DNA of 64,000 nucleotides from Golubevia sp. BC0850. Taxonomy: Eukaryota; Basidiomycota; Exobasidiomycetes; Golubeviales; Golubeviaceae. Under the pieces are notes generated by a model. The model saw only the letters and a list, made by a program, of their open reading frames with translations. It searched no databases and was not told where the DNA came from. The stretch's first letter is position 1. The number at the start of each line of letters is the position of its first letter. The stretch lies in NCBI GenBank assembly GCA_012976225.1, contig JAAVVG010000031.1, positions 1 through 64,000 on the forward strand, written 5' to 3'. Below, piece by piece: positions 11,360 through 63,856 of the stretch. The position numbers and the translations under genes were made by a program.

Positions 11360-14089
11360 TCACTCTCTACCCCAGATCCCACGTTTGATGTAATCAGCCA
11401 TGAGCAAAGCTCTCGTCCTTGTCGAGACCTGTTCCGATAGATAGAAAGATCTCCAGGCGTCTGAGGTGTTTAAAACAGAAGCGGAAGAAATCTGGTCAGT
11501 CAATCGCGTCATGTCTTTTTCCAACAGGCATCATCAGCGGCCTTCTCCAGTCAATACTCACACATAGCCAGCAATCCACCAGCGAAACTACCGAAAGGTT
11601 CTGGAAGCGGTAGATCAAAAGCAGCAGCATTTCCAATATATGCCAAAGATCCTAAATTCGTGTACTTGAAAGGTTTGTAATGGGCATCATCAATGTCACA
11701 CATTTCTTCAGCAGTATGAGCATAAATGTCTTCTCCAGAATCTCTTTTCTTTGCTAATTTGTTGAGTTTCTTAGCTAGATAAGAACCTTGTTGAGAAGCT
11801 ACTTGAGCTCTGTAGTAATTTCAGAGAGAAGAGATAAAGAGGTGAGTGCCAAGAAGGGGGGGGGGAAGGTAAAACTCCTTGAGCAGAAGCGAAGGGACCG
11901 TTGAGAAAGAGATAACACTCACGTAGCAGGTAAACTAGTCATCTTCTTCTGAGTTTCCAAAAACATCTCAGCGATTTCATTCAAATTCAATTTGCCATCT
12001 TTATCCAAATCATGTTTATCAAAGACTTCATTCAACTTGGTGAAATGTTTTGAAGCCAAAGGGAATTTCCTACCAACCGAGTTAGCCAAGCTTTTAAATT
12101 CCATAAAGTTCAATTTGCCATCTTTATCCTTATCATTAGCTTCAACGAATTCATAAAGGTAATCAATGAGTCTGGTATCAATGGTACTAGCATCACCTAA
12201 AGCATACATACTTCCTAAAGGACTACCTTTAACTCTCAAATGAGAATCGATTTGAATCGCTTTCAAATGAGATTGATTTGGAAGTCTTTGAGTTAATTGT
12301 CTTGTGAAAGGTGACATAGCGATTCCAGTTGACCATAAGGTGAATCCACTTGGAACTTCAAATTCACTTAGTTTTCCGTTCTCATCCTTTCTTGTGTAGA
12401 CTACTTTATCTTTTTCAACTCTTTTGACTCTAGCATTCACTATGATGTTAACCTCATCTCTACCGAATTTCTTCTCTGCGTATTCAGAGATCTTTTCAGA
12501 ATAAGTGTTGAGGATATGTTCTCTAGATTGAATCAAACTGACTTTAGCATTGGATCTCAAGATTTTGGGATAATAGGTTAAAACGTCTTCATTCAACATA
12601 TCATAAACTGAAATGAGAGGGAAGGAGGAAAGTCTTGTTTGATGAGTAAATTTCTCTTGACGACAGGACCCATTCTTCCCACCTCGTTCTTCTACTCAAC
12701 TCACTTTCAGCAGCCGTTTCAACCCCAGTAGGTCCACCTCCACAAACGACCATACTCAACAACCTTTCTCTTTCCTCAGGACTGGTAGTAGGTAAACTAG
12801 CGATTTCCAAATTATCCAAGATATGACTTCTAATCTCTCTGGCATCCTTGATAGTTTTCAAATGAAAGCAATTTTCCAATCCAGGTACACCATGAGTATT
12901 AGTAACGCTTCCAACAGCAACTATCAATCTATCATAAGGTACGTAAACTTTCTTTCCTTTAGTCTCTTTTCTTTCTCCATCCCCAGCAGAGTAAGATTTT
13001 GGACCTTCATGTTGACCTGAGAATTCCGAAACTCCTTCATGACCAGAGATGACGTCTACTTCTACGAATCTTTCCTTTCCACCTTTTGAAGGTGGTAGAT
13101 CTGATCCCATCACTACATCCACTGCTGCTCCTTGAATGTAATGACCTTTGACTCTTGAAATGATTTTACGAAGTGGTTCTACTAGGGAACGAGGTTCTAC
13201 CGTCCCTACTGTTGCAGAAGGTAATAGAGGTGTGAAGAGGTAGAAGTTTGATGGAGAAATGATAGTGACGTTGTATTTGTGTGGGTCGAGGTTGCTTAAT
13301 AGAGCCACGGCTGTTGAGAAAAGGGAAGGGCAGAGTTGGGAAGGAGGTCAGTGACTAGGGAGAGAAGACTGAGTTCTTCGAGCTCCTCATTTGATTTGAG
13401 AGTATGTTAAGAACTCGATTCAACTCAAGTGGTATCAGACCGAATGAAGAGAGGTATGAGAAAGAAAGGAGCTGTTCTTTTTGAGTTTCCAAGACTCCTG
13501 CCGTCTTTGCCTTTCTCCTCTGACTGAACTCTACCTAGATGTTCCGTCCCAAACACTTGTCTATCTCGGTTTATCTGCTCGCTTCAATTCAATGAAAGTA
13601 CTCACCAGCCCAACCTCCTCCAACGATGACCAACCTCTCCTTCTTGCAATCACCTTTTGATTCCTCATCTTGTTCATCTTCCAATGAATCTGATACAATG
13701 GGTAAATTCTTTGGACCACCAGGTTTTGGATGTAAAGCTAAAGGAGTTGCAGGAACGTTTTCAACGTGAGCCTCTCTGTAAGTTAAAGCGTCATGAGCTA
13801 GAATTGCAGTCGTAAGAGCGATGACTGAGAAAACGATGGAAGAACATCCCCAGAAAGTCCATCGTAGATAAGGATGTCGTTTTAGGAAAGTTAAAGAGGC
13901 AGGTTGAGTGACTGTAGTTGTAGGTGTAGGTGTAGGTGTAGGTGTAGGAGGTGGTGAAGTTGAAAATGGATGATAAGCTGCTGCTACTACTCTAGAATTT
14001 GAAGTTAATCGTTGAATTAAAGTTGAAGTTGATGATGATTTCAAGGCTGACCTTAAAAGTCTACTCCTATTTAGTAGACTCATTCTCAA
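11360..14089 (-). CDS. NDE1: external alternative NADH:ubiquinone oxidoreductase with EF-hand insert
   Basis: This is a type II NADH dehydrogenase that oxidises NADH at the inner mitochondrial membrane and passes electrons to ubiquinone without proton pumping. Exons are 13606-14089, 12705-13310, 11923-12607, 11562-11809 and 11360-11460 (707 aa, all phases match). The N-terminus (MRMSLLNRSRLLRSALKSS) is basic and Ser-rich like a mitochondrial presequence, then carries a Pro-Thr repeat and a membrane segment near residues 60-80. The first dinucleotide-binding motif GGGWAAVALL spans the exon 1/2 junction. The second is VVCGGGPTGVETAAE. Two EF-hand loops, DKDKDGKLNFME and DKHDLDKDGKLNLNE, sit near residues 530-590, as in calcium-responsive external enzymes. 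The C-terminus YAWRSFYLSEQVSTRTRALL is the family's closing membrane anchor. Confidence 0.93.
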
Positions 14090-31718: not shown

Positions 31719-33642
31719 TTATGCGGCAGCAGGAGTCTCGTCGTTACCAGCGTTGGCAGCGGCGACATCATCCTCAGCAACAGTGGAAGTTCTACGTTCC
31801 TTTTCGGTTTCGAGCTGAATGATGAGGAAGACACCAGAGATAAGATCAGCGGTAAGTCAGCAATCGAATAAAGAAAGCAACAGCTGAGGAATAATAGAAG
31901 TGGCATACAGTCGATGAAGACCCCTCTGACTGACACTCACCTGGTTGTATAGTAGGAATAGAGCCTTCTCGTTAGCCTCTGGAGAACCTTGAATAGTGAA
32001 CATACGTTCTCCAGTCTCATCGTGAGGAACCTTAGCGATTGAGATTCTACTTCCACTCAATCTTCTGATCTCGGTGATCTTTGAACCACCCTTTCCGATG
32101 ATGCAACCAACCATATCAGATGGGATCGAGATATTCTGAGTTCTCATGTTGGCAGCATCGACAGCCATTCCTGGGGCAGCAACTCCTGGAATAGATGGAG
32201 CAGCAGAAGCACCACCAGCGATCAAACTTCCTCCTGGACCGACAGCGGCACCAGCTAGAGCTTCGGCAGCAGCTGACTGTCTACGACTTCCTGAACCGCC
32301 GTTGGAGGCCATACCGAAGTCTCCTTGACCAGGTTGAGAAGCACGTCTTCCACCTCCGACGTTGTATCCACCCATTCCACCAGTCAAATAGGCAGGTCCT
32401 CCAGATGGACGTCTGCTTCCTTGTGGTTGTAGACCTCCGACCCCACCAGCAGCTAGGACACCAGCTCCATCAGTGGCAGATGGGTGGTAGAGAACAGTTC
32501 CGTTGGAGCGTTCCTTGTCCTCGACTAGACATTTGGCGATCTCGTAGACTGCGACGCGAATGGCTTCGACGGTTCCTTGGACTTCTACTACACGCTCGGT
32601 TGAGGAAGGTAGCATCTCCTTTGAGGCGACCATACGAGCTCCAGAGACGTCTTGAATGTGTTTGATCTTGAGACCTGCACGTCCGATAACGGTTCCCATG
32701 AGGTTGTGAGCGATGAGGAGACGAACGGCGGTGAGAGCGTTTGGAGCTGGGGTGATTGGGCTAGTTGATGGATCAGCAGTGACTGGGTTCTCTAGGATGG
32801 TTTGTCCGATGAGAGAGTAGGCCTGAAAGGGAGGGAGACATGATGAGAGGTGGAGTTTAGCTTGTGAGATCGAAGATCTGGAGCAGCAGCCGATGCTCCC
32901 TCATCGTCACAGTCCACCCAGGTACAGCAGAAGAAATGAGGACAGATTCTGAGCACCCTATTCACAATCAATCTCGAAAGAGGAGATAGACGATGCGTTC
33001 CCAAGCATGAGCAGAGATGTTGACTTTTCTTCCTAGCTCCATCTTGCCCTCACTTCGGATCCCAATCTCAACTTTCCAACTTCCCTTTCCCTCTCAACTT
33101 TTGATCTGAACTCACCTTTGCAATTCCTTCTAAAGTTCCACTGACACTCAAGACACGATCGTGAACTCCTGGTACGACCTTGGAGACACCAGCCTTGACA
33201 CCAGTGTTCTCACGAAGTTCAGCTACGTTTGAACCAGACTTTCCAATGATGACACCAGCTTCCTTGGTTGAGACCAAAGCCCTGACGGTTAAGATTGTGG
33301 TTGGATCGATTTCGACCTCTTCCATGGCATGAGTGAGTTGATCTACGTTGTCAGAGCTGCCGGCAGCCTCTGGGCTGGCTTTAGCTGCTTCAGAAGAAGT
33401 GGATTCGTTTAGCTGCACGGCAGCTTGAGTGACTGATGGAGAGGTGATGGGCGTACCTGCGCCAGAATCGGTGGCTTTGAGATTCAACATGGAAGATGGG
33501 AGAAAGAGTTGAAGGAGAGGAGAGGAGAGAGGTAAGAGCGAGGGAGAGTGAGCGAGGTGAAGAAAAGTTGGGCTTGGACAGCGACGACACAGCAAGTCGG
33601 TGAAATCTAGAGAAGTCAAAACTTACGCTTGATTTCGGACAT
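31719..33642 (-). CDS. three-KH-domain RNA-binding protein (PCBP/Hek2/Rnc1 type)
   Basis: A single-strand RNA-binding protein of the poly(C)-binding group; fungal members control mRNA localisation, stability or telomere-related functions. Exons are 33627-33642 (16 nt, MSEIK), 33116-33474, 31941-32822 and 31719-31814 (450 aa). The three KH motifs show the GxxG loops in AGVIIGKSGSNVAELRENTG (about residue 85), LMGTVIGRAGLKIKHIQDVS (about 170) and MVGCIIGKGGSKITEIRRLS (about 370). A long Gly/Ala/Ser linker separates KH2 and KH3. The first intron directly after five codons is inferred from the clean GTAAGT donor and CTCAAAG acceptor. A downstream start within the transcript (MLNLKATDSG, 33491) is the alternative. 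Confidence 0.88.
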
Positions 33643-34653: not shown

Positions 34654-36223
34654 ATGGATTCCGACGATGAACTAGAACTAATAGAAGAACACGATCTAGA
34701 ATTGACCTCCCAAGATTCACGTTCAGACAACGAAGCAAGAAGGAGAACAAACACCAAATCAAAGAAATCAACTACAAAGCGAAGAAATCAAGACTCAAAC
34801 TGTGATCCTTTCGCATCTGACAACGACGATGATCTGGTATCAGCTTCAGATCAAGAACCAGATCCTTATGGAAGCCAGCAAGAGGATGGAGAGACTGAAC
34901 AATCTAGACAGGATTCCCACTTCCAACTCTTGAAAGCTACTGTCATTGACATCACTAGTGCTTTAGGTGGATTAGAGGAGAGAATGGATGATAATGGAAA
35001 GATCATCAGTGAATACATCATTGGAGATGATTGTCTACGTGAGTATCTTCGAATTTTGACGCGATTTGGGATGCCAAAGGTGGGAGGGAGGTGGTGTTGG
35101 AGGAGCAGCAGCAGCCTCAATCTACTTCGAGATCCTATCGATTCGCTTCTAACCCCTGCCATTCCAATCCTGATCTATCTTTCACAATTCTCTCAGGGTG
35201 TCTCCGTGATCTCAGAACTCTTTGGAGGCAGGATGATCAGGACTCCTCAAGACTGATCCCTCGCGTCTTCTCAGAGGTCAGCGTGCTTCAGAATGGCTTG
35301 ATTCCTCTGCTGCTAAAGGTTGCTGGTACTGATGAAAGAGGGGATAAGATTGCTTTGGCTTGCAGTGAGTAATTCTGACGCGATCGAATGGAACAGGCAA
35401 TGGGAAGTCGGAGGAAAGCGAGGTGGAAATCAGAGGGGAACAGGTACAGAGCTTAGCTGGAGTTGAAGGGCTCAATGGAACCTCTCTCCACTCTCCCATT
35501 CTTCTTCAGCCGATCTATTGACTGCTGTCACCTGGCCAATTGATGCCATGGCTGAGTTGGCAGAAGCTATCAACAAGGACGATGATCCGAAATCAATGCA
35601 ATTCCTCCCCGCTTTGGAAAGAGCTCTGGTCACCTACAAGGCCTCTATTTTACGCATTAGATCTGGAGAATCTCATTTGAGAGGTTCTAAAGGTAGAGAC
35701 AGAGATGTCTTGTCCGTGATCATGCGTTACATTCTAATGCCATGTCTACAGAAACCTAGACCTCTCAGGACGGAAAGAGACATTGGGACCATCTCGATGT
35801 GCTTACATCTCTTCAGGAATCTACTGGCTATCAAGGATCCGATCGCTACTACTCTATCTTCTGCAGACGCTATCGCAAGCTCTACTCTTCAGTCAGCTTT
35901 AGTGGTAGCTATGGAGAAGAGCTTCGTCTTGGGGACGATTCTCATGTTAGCTAGCAGTGCTGAAACTAGAGATTTCGAAGCTTGGAACGCTGTCGCTAGT
36001 GACTGTGTCTTTCACATCTTCTCTGGAAGTAGTCCTAGAGTTCTAGCTCTGGGTAGTGAAGCTAAGATGGCCGGAAGTAGTGTCTTGGTGGAGGAGAAGA
36101 AGGAGGAAGAGGAGGACACTTTCGGTGCTATCTTCCAAGAGAAGCCAGCCCCCAAGAAGGTGAGTAATTCAGCGATAGCTCCTTCTCTCTGCAACGTCGA
36201 ATGGAAACTTATTTGTCTGTCTG

Positions 36224-36262
<39 letters not shown>

Positions 36263-39200
36263 CCTCACAGCCGGTTTCCGACTTTGGAGCTTTCCTGGCA
36301 GCTGAGGCAGCTCAAGAGCGTCACAGAATCTCAGTCAGTGGAAATGCCAGACATTCCAGATTCTCTGGAAGTTTCACCTTCACCGGTTCTACTGGGCGTA
36401 AGCTAGTCTCAACAGATCCAAACACTCTACGTAAGAGTGTTCAGCAACTTCAAGATGAAAACGATTTGAGATCAAAGAGAACTTTCAGAAGAAAAAAGAC
36501 AATGCAAGAGAGAGGTGCTCCTAGACCTAAGACTGAATGGACTAGAGATGCTAGGAACCTTCTCAAGGAATGGGCGGATATGTTTATGAAAGATGGATTC
36601 GAGAGTGAGTATCAAGACCTCGTCGAATTAGAGACAAAGTTCGTTGAAACTAACGTCCTCCCTCTCTGTCACCCTCACTTCAGCTCTCACTCGATCAGTG
36701 CTCAAAGACATCCGTTCGGAACGTGAGAAGCTGGGAGATCTCGACGAAGCTCGTGTCAGAGTCATGTATCTGGGAGCTTTCTTTCTAGAATACTTCCTGA
36801 TTCGAAGAGAGAGTTCAGCTCGTCCCTCTACCAATCCAAGTCGACCAGCAGCAAAGGAAGTTCAAATTCCTGCAGATGGATCTCCTCAAGCTCAAAATCC
36901 GTTAGAGAATGCCTCCAAGGACAAGGATTTGCAAGCTTGGCCTGCTACTCTCATCGGAGAATGGCTGGAGCCTTGGGCCTTCAAGATGGTCACTGTTCGT
37001 TCTTATTCATCTCTCGACAGTAAGAACTGGTTAGAGTTTGTCACTTCTGTTCAGCTCTGGACTATTCTTCTCAGGATAGTCGACCTTCTCAGTAGAAGTG
37101 ACGACAAGGATGAAGCTGAAGCTGCCGATGGACTGCAAGGTCAACTCTACTATCAATCCGAAGCTCTGGAGACCTGCAAATTGGTAGCTAACTCTTACAA
37201 GACTCAGAGTTTCACCTGCTTGGAGAACATCATCAGTTTTTCCTTCTTCATGCCGAAGATGTTGGAAAGGTACGCAAGTGACAAGGAGAACATGTTCGTC
37301 AAGGCCAAGAAAAAAGCAAAGAGTGCTAGGAAGAAAGCTCTGGAAGAAGGAGACGAAGAAGCGGCGGAAGCAGCTCTGAGAGGTGGTGATGAAGCTATTA
37401 AGGAGAAAGCTGAAGACATGTTCACCGAGAGAAGGTTCGTCTTCCAAAACTTCCAGACCAAGTTGACTACCAAGAAGCTAGCTGATGCATGCGTCACTTA
37501 CTTGAGTAGATGGAGAGAATTTTCTGAACCTGGAGAACATCTAGCAAGAGTAGTTGGAGTCATGCATCGAATTGCAATCAAAGCTCAAGATTACAGAACT
37601 TTCTTCCCAGCTCCTCATAGAATTACTTTCAGAGCTCTTCTAGTTTCTCCTCTATTCTCTTCTTTGGAAATCTACAACAAGACAGCAACTTCGGATCTCA
37701 AGAAACTGCTAGAATTCATTTTGAAGAAATTCGACAAGTTGGACGAGGAAGAACAGAATCGATGGGTCTCTGCTAAGATGCCTAGAAGTCAAGCTAAAGC
37801 TGCTAAGTTGGCTGCTGAGATCACTTGCAAACCCGGAGTCTACTTGAAGGATCAATTCGGAGTAGCGGTCGGTTTGTTGCTTTCTAAAGAAAAGATGAAG
37901 TACGTCCTTTGGGTAAAGAATGCGCTTGAAATGGCTAGTGCTCAGAGAACTGAGATCGTAACTCATACAGATGGAGATCTTGAGCAAGGAAAAGGTGCAA
38001 CTGAAGTCGACTCTGATGACAGTGATGCGGAAGATGGTGCTAATGGAAAAGGAACAGTCCCATCTGACGAAGCTCTCGCTCGATTCGAGCCACATGGTGA
38101 GATGAAAAAGTTGCCGTAGGCCACACATTCTCCTCAGCATTGTTGACTCACCTTCTATTGTCTACCCATCATCTCCCAGTTCTACGATACGAAGGAGACG
38201 CAGATTTGGAAGAAGACGCTACCAAGATGCCCGAGCTCAAGTTGCTTTGTCGTCTCGCTGGCCTTCAGAGCGATGAGGGTGAGTATGAGCGGAAGGATCT
38301 GATGCATAGTGAGACTGGAAGCTGACTTTCTTTTCCCCTTCCTCCCCTCTCAGCTGATCCTGTTCGTTGGACCTGGACCGTTCCAGCTCGTATCTTTCCT
38401 TCTCATCTCAACGCTGACATCGAGTCGATTGAGAACTTCATTCGTGATCCTCTCGAGACTAATGGACTTGAATTATCAAGCTACGTCAAGAAGGTCAGGA
38501 AACCATCAGTTCGAAAACCCAAAGCAGCCAAGCCAACCGACAACAACGACGACGATCTTCAAACCGCAAGTTCAGCTTCCTCTTCTTCCGATTCCGACTC
38601 TGCTGAGTTCCAACAGAAGAAGCAGCAGGCAAAGAAGGCTAGAGCAGTCAAGAATTCGGACTCATATTCTTCTGGCTCTGACGCTCCGGTTGAGAAGAAG
38701 AAACGGAACATCATCAAGGCGAAAGCTTCTAAACCAAAGAGAACCATCATTAGAAACAAGAGTAGCGTCAAAGTCTCAAGATCTCCAAAGAAGAAAGACA
38801 ACAGACCTCAATGGACTCCTAATGATTTCATCGAAGACTCTGAAGAAGAGAGAGCTCTCGTTGATAAGTTGTTCGCTGAAAGAGAGGCAAGGAGAGCTGC
38901 CGGTGGTGGAGAAGTTATCGCTATGCCTCGCCCTGTCCCAAAAGCTACCAGAGCTCCAAACGACAGCGATGCAGACAGTGATGATGAAGACACTGGCAAC
39001 GGTTCTTCTTCTAATCGACGCTCAAGATCAAGACGTTCAGAAGAGACTACTCCTCCAACCAGTTCTCCAAAGAACGACGCAGCTACTTCGAAGAGGTCGG
39101 ATGCTCTATTCTTAGGAAACAATGCAAGTGACGATGAAGAAGACGAACTGGATGAAGATCAAAACGATGGTCAAGACGTGGAGATGCAATCTCCAACTCC

Positions 39201-59525: not shown

Positions 59526-60202
59526 ATGGTCGCCATCAACACTCTCACCATCCTAGCTATCTTCACTGCCGTGGTTTCTTCCAGCCCAATCACTGAAGAA
59601 AAGAGACTTCTCGTAGGTCCTACCAGTCCTCCAGCTGGATACGTCAACAGTGGGAAACCTTGTGATGATAAGTACTTCTGTACCATCCTAGAAGGCCAAC
59701 CAAAGGGTAGTGTGAGTAAGGTTTTCTGTCCGAGAAAACAAAAGTCAAAAGACGGATTTCAACATTCAAACGCTGTCTCTCTCTGACCCGAGTGAAACTG
59801 ACATCGACGTCTTTGTTCGTATTCTCCTTTTCTAGGTTTGTGTGGGAGGTAAAACTGGAAGTGTAACGGGAATGTGCTACAACCCTCCAGCTGCCAGCTC
59901 AGAAAAAAGACTTCTGGTCGGTCCTACCAATCCTCCAGCTGGATATGTCAACAGTGGGAAACCTTGCGATGATAAGTACTTCTGTACAATCTTAGAAGGC
60001 CAACCAAAGGGAAGTGTGAGTATTATTCTTGGTTCATATCGAAAGTCAAAAGACAACGGACTTGGTATGAATGTATGACTCTCTGAAGCTAGCGTCTGAC
60101 GTACGTTCTTTTCACCGTCTTCTTTCTCTTCTCTAGGTCTGTGTGGGAGGTAAGACTGGAAGTGTCACCGGAATGTGCTATAACCCTCCTGCTACTAACT
60201 AG
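59526..60202 (+). CDS. secreted Kex2-type two-repeat cysteine protein/peptide precursor, 143 aa
   Basis: Exons are 59526-59711, 59836-60015 and 60137-60202, all phase 0. Residues 1-20 (MVAINTLTILAIFTAVVSSS) form a signal peptide. After PITEEKR come two units of 60 residues, each starting LLVGPT and preceded by Lys-Arg, the Kex2 cleavage pair. Each unit holds four Cys in the contexts GKPCDD, KYFCTI, SVCVGG and GMCYNPP. The units differ in almost no residue before their ends (SPP versus NPP), whereas their DNA differs at about nine mostly third-codon positions. Each unit is cut by an intron after GS; the two introns keep a shared AAAGTCAAAAGAC patch. It is probably processed in the late Golgi into two disulfide-bonded peptides and secreted. 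It could be a small-secreted effector, a peptide signal or a RiPP-like precursor. No known family recognised. Confidence 0.88.
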
Positions 60203-60788: not shown

Positions 60789-61936
60789 CTAACTAACAGA
60801 TCCCAAAACCTTCATCGCCAAAGCTTTAAGTACCTCAGCTCTTTGACTTGCACCTAAATTCATGAAAACTTGAGCTACAGATTTACCTTTTGCGTCTCTG
60901 ATCGCCCCTAGTCGATTTCCTATTACTGCTCCACCTATTAGACCTGTGAGGTTGTTGCCATCAGAAAACAAAAGGTAGGAGGAAGGGAAGGAATGGAAAG
61001 GTAAAAAAAGAGAAGGGTTTCAAAAGGGACCAGATTCTTCTTCTCTCCTCTTCCGGGCTGTGAAAGGAAAGAGGAGAAATACTACTTGAAATAGTCCCTT
61101 GACACGCTAGCTTTGTAACGACCCCTTGGAACAAGAGCAGACAAAGTCAATAGCTCAAAACTCACCAGGTATGTTTCCCATGATAAAACCTAAACCAGCA
61201 CCAGAAGCTGATCCAACCCATGACCAAATCGGAGCTACCCGCTCTACTTCTGGACGTAAGAGATCTGAGAAGATGTCGGTGAAGACCGCTTCGGCTAGAG
61301 AGGGGAGAATGGGAGGTTAGTAGGTCAGTCAAAGGATTGGAAGACATAGAATGAATGACTTTCTCTCCTTCGTCTTTCTCCAGTATGAATCCAACCACAT
61401 GATATTTGGAGTGACATCAAATCGTATTTCATGTTTGGGTCCAGGATGATGATTGAGGAGTGGCCTACCACCTCCAACGCTGCGCAGCTTGTCCTACTTT
61501 CCTCTCGACTTCTCCTCATCTCAACCGCATACTCACGCTCAGGTTGAGCACTACCTTCTCGAGCACCACTACTACTGCCTGCTCCCTTTCCAGCTCCAGC
61601 TCCACCAAAGAAAGAATTAAAGAAACTTGCTGAACTAAACTGTTCTTTCTCAGGATCTCCATCTGGACCGAACCAATTCCCACCTGGCATGTTCTGTGAG
61701 GATTTTCTAGCTTCATCATAATCAGATCTTCTTTCTGAATCTGATAGAACGTAATAAGCATCCGCTACCGATTGAAACCTGGAAGTGTAAGATTTACGGG
61801 CTGAAGGTGATGCGTTTGGGAATCTGTCTGGATGACATGATAGCGATTGTCGTTTATAGGCTTCTTTAATCTCTGAAGTTGTGGAAGTTGGTGAAATGTT
61901 TAGGGTAGCGTAATAATCTGGCAGAGAAGAATCCAT
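60789..61936 (-). CDS. J-domain (DnaJ-like) co-chaperone with glycine-rich hydrophobic tail
   Basis: Exons are 61537-61936, 61166-61294 and 60789-60943 (227 aa, all phases match). The J domain occupies residues 5-75: DYYATLNISPTSTTSEIKEA, the essential HPD in SLSCHPDRFP, then SVADAYYVLSDSERRSDYDE. It should stimulate an Hsp70 ATPase. A Gly/Ser/Ala linker follows. The last two exons encode a Gly-zipper-like hydrophobic region (SWVGSASGAGLGFIMGNIPG; GLIGGAVIGNRLGAIRDAKG), which may insert in or lie along a membrane. The end is a helix, AQVFMNLGASQRAEVLKALA. The location is not clear; there is no presequence. Fungal relatives with this J plus Gly-zipper layout exist but I cannot assign a name. 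Confidence 0.85.
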
Positions 61937-62074
61937 GATGGAGATGCTGATGCTGAGAGGGTGAAAGACTGGACGTGGAGATAGAAGAATCGGCAGTCCG
62001 GTTTCTCTTCACAACCAATCCCATCATTCTTCCTTTTCTAATTTACTTCAACAACCTTATCAATTCACTCAATC

Positions 62075-63856
62075 ATGACCAAGAAGATCACTGAAGCACC
62101 TCTACCAGAGATGGGATTGGAATCCCTCTTCGGTGTCAAAGGAAAGGTAAAGCAAGAATCAGAATCAGAATCGCCAGTTCAGTAGAAGTAGAACCCCACA
62201 CTTTCCTATATTACTTGCACTCATCCTCAAACCCCCTCCCTTCCTGATCTTTCTATCTTTCTATCAGATCGCACTCGTTACTGGAGGAGGAACTGGAATC
62301 GGAAAGAGTGAGCACCATTTAACCTCCAATCACCTCGTCCTCCCCATCTTTCTAATCTTCTCCTCTCCCTCTTCTCCCTCTCCAGTGATGGCCGCTGCCT
62401 TAGTCCGTAACGGAGCTAAGGTTTACATTGCATCTCGTAAACTTCCAGCAATTGAGAAATCAGCCAACGAACTCTCAGCTCTCTCACCTTCAGATTCTGG
62501 AATTTCCGGTCCAGCTTGCATTCCAATTACCGCAGACGTTTCTTCAAAAGCGGGTTGTGATGATTTAGCTTCCAAGATTAAAGAGAAAGAAAGTCATTTG
62601 GACATTTTGATTAATAATTCAGGTGCTACTTGGGGAGCTCCTTTGGATAACTTCCCAGAAGAAAAAGGTTGGGATAGGACTTTCAATTTGAACGTCAAGA
62701 GTCAGTTCTATTTGACTGTTGCGTGAGTATGATTGGAGATTGAGAATGAAAGAAAAGGAGTATCAAATGGATTTAGCAGGTCTTATTTGTAGGAAGGCTG
62801 CAGGTTGGTTGGAACAAGCGGAGATAGAGCAGGGAGCATGAGTCTATCTCCAATCTCTCTTGAATCTGTCTAACACTCCTCTCCCCTCATGCATTTACAC
62901 TTTAAGTCTTCTTCCTCTACTTGAAGTTGGAAAGTCAAACACTAGTGAGTGTGTCTCTTCCCTTTCCACTATCTCCACAGCCTTTCTGACATTAAGCCCT
63001 TCCCCTTGTTCACTCCCCCGTACTTCTCAGAACAAGCATCAGTCATCATGATCTCCTCAGTCGCAGGATTCGTCCCAATGGCTGGAGGTCCTCTAGCTGC
63101 TCCTGGAACTGGAACTTTCAGTTGTAAGTTTATCAACCATTTCTAATTTCTATGAGCGAGCTTTGACTCCTCTTTCTGGGGAGATCTCGCTCTTGACCTT
63201 CTTGGGAGAATCTCTTTTCAGATTCCTTCTCCTAAGAATCTTTCCAGGAGGTCCAGCATCTGACCTCACCCTTCTCGAACGTTTCCACCTGCTTCTTTCT
63301 TTCCACCTCTCTGTCCCCCTGCCACCGTTACCTTCCTTCTTTCAACTCCAATCTCGGTATTCTACTTGACGACTTCTAGACCAACCCTCGAAAGCCGCTT
63401 CAATCCATCTAACCAGAACTCTAGCCAATCAATTAGCAGAGAAATACGTTTTGGTCAATGCTATTTGTCCAGGAGTTTTCCCTTCTTTAATGACTGCTTA
63501 TGGGTTGAATGAGAACAGGGAGTTATTCGATGAGAGTCAACCTACTGGTGAGTGGAGCACTTCATTCTTTGTTTCAATCCCTATCGCTTTCTCTCCCTCA
63601 AGAAGAAAGTTGGTCGAGAGAAGGATTCTTCTCTCTTGATTGATCTTCGTCCCATCCAAAGCCTACCCCGAGGTCTTCTGATCATCTTCTCCCCCCTTCT
63701 CCTCTCTCAAAACCATGATGAACAGGTCGTGTCGGTCAACCTCAAGATATCGGAGGTCTCGCGGTCTTCTTATGTTCGAGAGCCGCTTCTCATATCACTG
63801 GAGCTGCGATTCCAATCGATGGAGGTCAATCTATCCAATGGATGCCTCGTCTTTAA
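62075..63856 (+). CDS. short-chain dehydrogenase/reductase
   Basis: An NAD(P)(H)-dependent oxidoreductase of the classical SDR family, closest in layout to RhlG/3-oxoacyl-reductase-like fungal enzymes; the substrate cannot be told. Seven exons: 62075-62146, 62268-62307, 62386-62722, 62907-62944, 63031-63123, 63380-63547 and 63726-63856 (292 aa, all phases match). The cofactor loop TGGGTGIGK spans the exon 2/3 junction. The NNSG motif ([12 protein letters not shown]) marks the central strand. The catalytic Ser is in [10 protein letters not shown]. The Tyr-Lys pair YQPSKAAS has its Tyr codon split by intron 5. The closing [12 protein letters not shown] is standard. Exon 4 is only 38 nt and was placed by phase and by its fit to the family (LLPLLEVG). 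Confidence 0.9.

Follow-up and report, generated by a model that had tools for sequence, protein, structure and literature searches.

A small gene at 59526–60202, on the forward strand of the window (the whole 64,000-nt stretch of Golubevia sp. BC0850 DNA analysed here), probably encodes a two-copy, Kex2-processed precursor that would release two near-identical disulfide mini-proteins. The argument, made from sequence throughout, draws on the placement of the Lys-Arg pairs, on a duplication that took in exon and intron together, and on the contrast between silent and replacement changes in the two copies.

Gene model and precursor layout

The gene has three exons (59526–59711, 59836–60015 and 60137–60202), which join into a spliced frame of 432 nt coding for 143 amino acids; coordinates and frame are as given in the preliminary description of this DNA. 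Its parts are as follows.

59526–59711, + strand: exon 1, 62 codons, with the N-terminal hydrophobic stretch, the pro-piece and unit 1 residues 1–35
59526–59582, + strand: probable signal peptide, residues 1–19, cleavage site estimated
59583–59606, + strand: pro-piece, residues 20–27, closing with the first Lys-Arg (59601–59606)
59607–59711, + strand: unit 1, first part, residues 28–62, with two of its four cysteines
59712–59835, + strand: intron 1, 124 nt, phase 0, GTGAGT...TTCTAG
59836–60015, + strand: exon 2, exactly 180 nt, phase 0-0, with the second part of unit 1, the Lys-Arg linker and the first part of unit 2
59836–59910, + strand: unit 1, second part, and linker, residues 63–87, closing with the second Lys-Arg (59905–59910)
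59911–60015, + strand: unit 2, first part, residues 88–122
60016–60136, + strand: intron 2, 121 nt, phase 0, GTGAGT...CTCTAG, a diverged copy of intron 1
60137–60202, + strand: exon 3, with the second part of unit 2 (residues 123–143) and the stop codon at 60200–60202

Splicing of both introns as modelled is well supported by sequence features. Exon 1 starts at the first in-frame ATG past an upstream stop and ends against a GTGAGT donor; read unspliced, the frame meets a stop within intron 1 at 59784–59786. A CTGAC motif starts 38 nt before the end of intron 1 (with another at 53) and 41 nt before the end of intron 2. The 222-nt intron of the neighbouring DnaJ gene also has a GTGAGT donor and an AG acceptor, and its joined exons keep the frame.

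The most hydrophobic nine-residue stretch of the protein, by hydropathy, is residues 9–17, and the −3/−1 rule places signal cleavage after residue 19. The two units open at residue 28 and residue 88, so that the period is exactly 60, and unit 2 is 56 residues long because a stop codon stands where the linker would come. Lys-Arg occurs only at residues 26–27 and 86–87 (there is no RR, KK, RK or other KR in the protein), each pair preceded by Glu and followed by Leu-Leu. Cysteines lie at 46, 52, 64 and 76 in unit 1 and at 106, 112, 124 and 136 in unit 2, spaced x5, x11, x11. Lys-Arg before each unit, four cysteines per unit and the 60-residue period had all been read off the sequence in the preliminary description, and all are borne out. 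The 143-residue protein has no N-glycosylation motif. The predicted products are 58 and 56 residues long (5.83 and 5.70 kDa when oxidised); a structure prediction for exon 2 alone (mean pLDDT 54.1) is too weak to use.

Predicted Kex2 processing

Since Lys-Arg stands exactly at the unit starts, nowhere else and in the same context, the protein looks like a Kex2-cut precursor. The hydrophobic N-terminus, judged by hydropathy, would direct it into the secretory pathway, where each unit would fold and its four cysteines would form two disulfides. By analogy with the known Kex2/Kex1 pathway, Golgi kexin would cut after both Lys-Arg pairs and a carboxypeptidase would remove the Lys-Arg left at the end of the first product. 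The cell would secrete two peptides that are almost the same, about 58 and 56 residues long, and a single transcript would supply the mini-protein twice over. The two copies arose by tandem duplication of a block, as the sequence shows, and the silent and replacement changes point to later purifying selection on both.

According to the available text of PMC8528282, Kex2 favours Lys-Arg at P2–P1 and aliphatic residues at P4. Here P4 is taken by Glu at the first site and by Ser at the second, neither aliphatic, so cleavage at the predicted sites may be partial. These P4 residues, and the presence of two units only, would also suit an uncut secreted two-domain protein that loses its N-terminal pro-piece or nothing, the second Lys-Arg lying in the linker by chance or being protected by the fold. 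The same reading gains from the fact that binding can be stronger when a tandem pair stays in one piece. We nevertheless judge it unlikely, because Lys-Arg is found at both unit starts only and with the same Glu and Leu-Leu flanks, an arrangement needless in a plain linker.

The enzyme that the processed-precursor reading calls for appears to be encoded in the genome, where one kexin gene was found (G000:C5). Its main exon matches solved yeast Kex2 at E 2.1e-119 (residues 36–407 of 407), and a P-proprotein match of 64.3 bits spans positions 1–62 of 86 before running into a stop; the remaining P domain is apparently in another frame, as expected at an exon end. For a tree, relatives were taken from the 8000 candidates sharing most words, only these being scored and those more than 1.75 times the query length being left out; of the 120 rows listed, 11 carry an organism name, and the 23-row tree takes in 10 of these, 12 of the 109 others and the query. 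In this tree the kexin groups with those of Malassezia: it falls within an eight-row set, itself included (96/95), which together with Malassezia caprae and one further row makes a ten-row set (100/99); the rows of Agaricomycetes, Cryptotrichosporon, Backusella and Ascomycota lie outside it. Support is weak at the deepest fork (83/71), and the root only serves the drawing. Going by this one gene, the fungus would belong to the Ustilaginomycotina or to a close relative of that group.

The exon structure also allows for a second product. Exon 2 being exactly 180 nt and phase 0-0, its skipping gives an in-frame precursor with a single complete unit, whose mature part would consist of the unit 1 residues up to the tail and then the unit 2 tail. 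That the gene makes a new, relative-less disulfide peptide from a precursor switched between one and two copies by such splicing strikes us as improbable; if it were true, peptide dose would be set by splicing, and more units could be added as 180-nt exons.

Duplication of exon and intron, and selection on the units

Both introns are phase 0 and cut the two units at one codon boundary, that separating residues 35 and 36 of the unit. Aligned to one another they score 51.5; intron 1 paired with each of 500 random 121-nt stretches, drawn from the window's first 58 kb, scores −20.9 on average and 16.0 at most. Under another scoring scheme the introns score 89.5, the best of 200 shuffles being 50.5. 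Homologous introns in matching positions imply that exon and intron were duplicated together, as had been proposed, and on these alignments the locus is a tandem duplication of a block made of exon part, intron and exon part. As a result of such a block duplication, exon 2 is no unit in itself and joins the closing part of one to the opening part of the next. For the first exon part the direct repeats lie 304 nt apart and for the second 301 nt, the introns differing in length by as much.

Two other accounts of this region were rejected. An assembly artefact would not leave 16 of the 56 shared codons different and the introns diverged, and the first 20 bases of the introns differ without a codon pattern (4, 1 and 2 differences by position), against a coding role for them. 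A separate observation is a 13-nt stretch (59741–59753 and 60042–60054) identical in both otherwise diverged introns, which could be a coincidence or serve splicing.

Up to the point where the tails part, the units have 54 codons in common, with 13 silent changes and one replacement (at unit position 7, Ser to Asn), leaving 53 of 54 residues identical; third codon positions account for 12 of the 14 differing bases. The statement that the exonic copies differ mostly at silent positions thus holds, the silent excess (13 of 14 changes) having a binomial P of 7.5e-8 and, with rounded site counts, a Fisher P of 1.2e-8. The ratio of dN to dS between the units, proposed as a check in the preliminary description, is about 0.02 by the Nei–Gojobori method (dS about 0.45, dN about 0.008). 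The shared stretch closes with two further codons, both of them replacements (Ala/Thr and Ser/Asn), at the place where the unit 1 linker meets the unit 2 C-terminus.

Purifying selection and conversion limited to exons had both been offered as causes of this pattern. Conversion rather than selection could account for protein copies this alike beside diverged introns, but it would erase silent differences too, and 13 remain. Intron divergence (JC) is 0.18, 0.20, 0.37 or 0.55 under four gap settings, cheap gaps giving the low values; the dS of 0.45 lies inside this range and exceeds the intron figure in three of the four settings, the two being of the same order in a comparison that depends on gap costs. 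Silent divergence comparable to that of the introns argues against exon-limited conversion, which we reject as very unlikely, and for selection on the peptide. The data fit purifying selection that holds both units to the same sequence.

Relatives, role and known precursor types

Searches for relatives returned the gene itself. No second locus turned up in the fungus's genome (25.77 Mb on 64 contigs): all three first-look candidates of the protein search matched, and the three matches are the gene's three exons. Pfam gave a single match at E up to 1, to DUF4027 (E 0.45, below its cut-off), and none to the mating-factor family MF_alpha; NCBIfam gave one match, far below cut-off, and PDB sequences gave chance-level matches only (best E 0.16, or 0.082 with a two-row profile). 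Among about 5.8 billion proteins, annotated fungal proteins included, there was no relative beyond P0001, the unspliced exon-2 frame of the same locus, which stands for two member sequences on two contigs and was reached with the whole protein (one of three candidates) and with the unit (one of one). Candidates in this search must be of similar length and have five-residue words in common with the query, so it may overlook distant relatives. Viral contigs searched with P0001, possibly with own-genome records left out, held 16 stretches fitting the pattern and 0 confirmed, and among open-licence PMC papers we found none on two-unit, cysteine-rich Kex2 precursors split by introns. The unit sequence, unrecognised in the preliminary description, likewise found no relative in Pfam, NCBIfam, the PDB and the protein database.

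Pfam was also run on 20 ORFs of the window (19 of the 48 with at least 150 residues, and one shorter), and six have a match, the first two being near neighbours of the gene.

61328–62008, − strand: DnaJ protein
62151–62723, + strand: short-chain dehydrogenase
31860–32900, − strand: KH-domain protein
35467–36723, + strand: Timeless
11922–12695, − strand: oxidoreductase with EF hands
493–1422, − strand: weak RNase H domain frame (27.2 bits, cut-off 25.8), near the window start

The RNase H frame is possibly a mobile-element remnant. Nothing among the 20 scanned ORFs resembles a peptide-modifying gene, in a region where genes are cut by introns.

What the peptides would do is a matter apart from how they are released. 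A host-directed secreted effector, of the K2PP (Kex2-processed pro-domain) or repeat type and in two copies, is compatible with the proposed processing and is a possible, if rather doubtful, role. It would sit well with the outcome of the searches, many effectors being without relatives. Its short pro-piece, Kex2 site and small cysteine-containing mature part would also be like K2PP effectors, described in the available excerpts as having an N-terminal pro-piece that ends in a Kex2 site, followed by the mature part (PMC8528282), and as being cysteine-rich in some cases (PMC10942635). Here, if the signal is cut after residue 19, residues 20–27 make up such a pro-piece, and the Kex2 site that closes it lies within the protein's first half; the difference is that in K2PP effectors a pro-domain comes off one mature protein, whereas the second Kex2 site here would release two. 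Two old copies nearly without replacements (one in 54 codons) are unlike an arms-race gene, however, and no second locus was found in the genome. With one of 54 residues changed against about a third of silent sites, we would guess that the peptide is self-directed, acting in the wall, in adhesion or in signalling, and is not a fast-evolving one aimed at a host; the strong constraint would speak for a fixed partner or structure.

An alpha-pheromone-like or modified, ustiloxin-like (RiPP) precursor shares the plan of signal, Lys-Arg and repeats as far as the excerpts describe it (PMC6339444, PMC7329392) and is highly unlikely: both Lys-Arg pairs are followed by Leu-Leu and not by an XA/XP (STE13) signature, the unit has 54–58 residues against 9–24 for alpha pheromones (PMC6339444, in part), MF_alpha has no Pfam match, and the 20 scanned ORFs hold no UstYa domain (DUF3328), for which a genome-wide search was empty, as was its control. 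A ustiloxin-type RiPP is thus not supported by what is a weak test. Of the Kex2-processed repeat form suggested earlier, the general plan of repeats and Lys-Arg stands and the alpha-pheromone version does not.

That plan is the one of KEPs (Kex2-processed repeat proteins), defined by a signal peptide, internal repeats and Kex2 sites between the repeats (PMC6339444), and both KEP surveys, in their available text, leave out proteins of fewer than three repeats (Le Marquer 2019, PMC6339444; Umemura 2020, PMC7329392). In Coprinopsis cinerea, KEP knockouts were made without apparent phenotype, according to the accessible part of PMC9769878, a warning that the role of a KEP may not be easy to discover. 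The present gene resembles KEPs in its probable secretion signal, near-identical repeats, Lys-Arg between them and a kexin in the same genome. It differs in having two repeats, below the surveys' quoted minimum, in a unit of 54–58 residues with four cysteines that is probably folded, and in that each unit is split by an intron, with exon 2 spanning two units. It fits the KEP idea and fails the surveys' working rule of three repeats. The term undescribed system, for which it was first named the best candidate, is therefore too strong, the overall plan being known already; new to the searches made are the peptide sequence and the two-unit, intron-split layout.

Ustilago maydis, a basidiomycete of the Ustilaginomycotina, offers a further likeness in Rep1, the repellent precursor, which is likewise of repeat form and is cut by Kex2. 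The 37-residue peptides of Rep1 control hyphal wall properties (PMC6339444) and, as multiple short peptides, form amyloid-like fibrils (PMC8528282), in the portions of these papers available. Compared by these partial descriptions only, Rep1 differs in yielding multiple fibril-forming short peptides and not two cysteine-rich units. Potato type II proteinase inhibitors, tandem cysteine-rich units cut from one precursor, work alike in outline; they are a plant system with eight cysteines per inhibitor against four here, and the sequence comparison is the Pfam scan only. The title of PMC2259423 names both tandem duplication and circular permutation for their repeats.

If the two-copy, Kex2-processed reading is true, the gene would represent a class of Kex2 precursor (two-unit, cysteine-rich and probably folded) that is ruled out by both surveys, and so marks a blind spot in them. 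To our knowledge, the combination of no relatives found and strong constraint between copies is unusual for small secreted fungal proteins. The lack of found relatives, together with very strong constraint between the copies, suggests a fixed role, and surveys that accept a pair of near-identical units, each with Lys-Arg at its start, could bring further such precursors to light.
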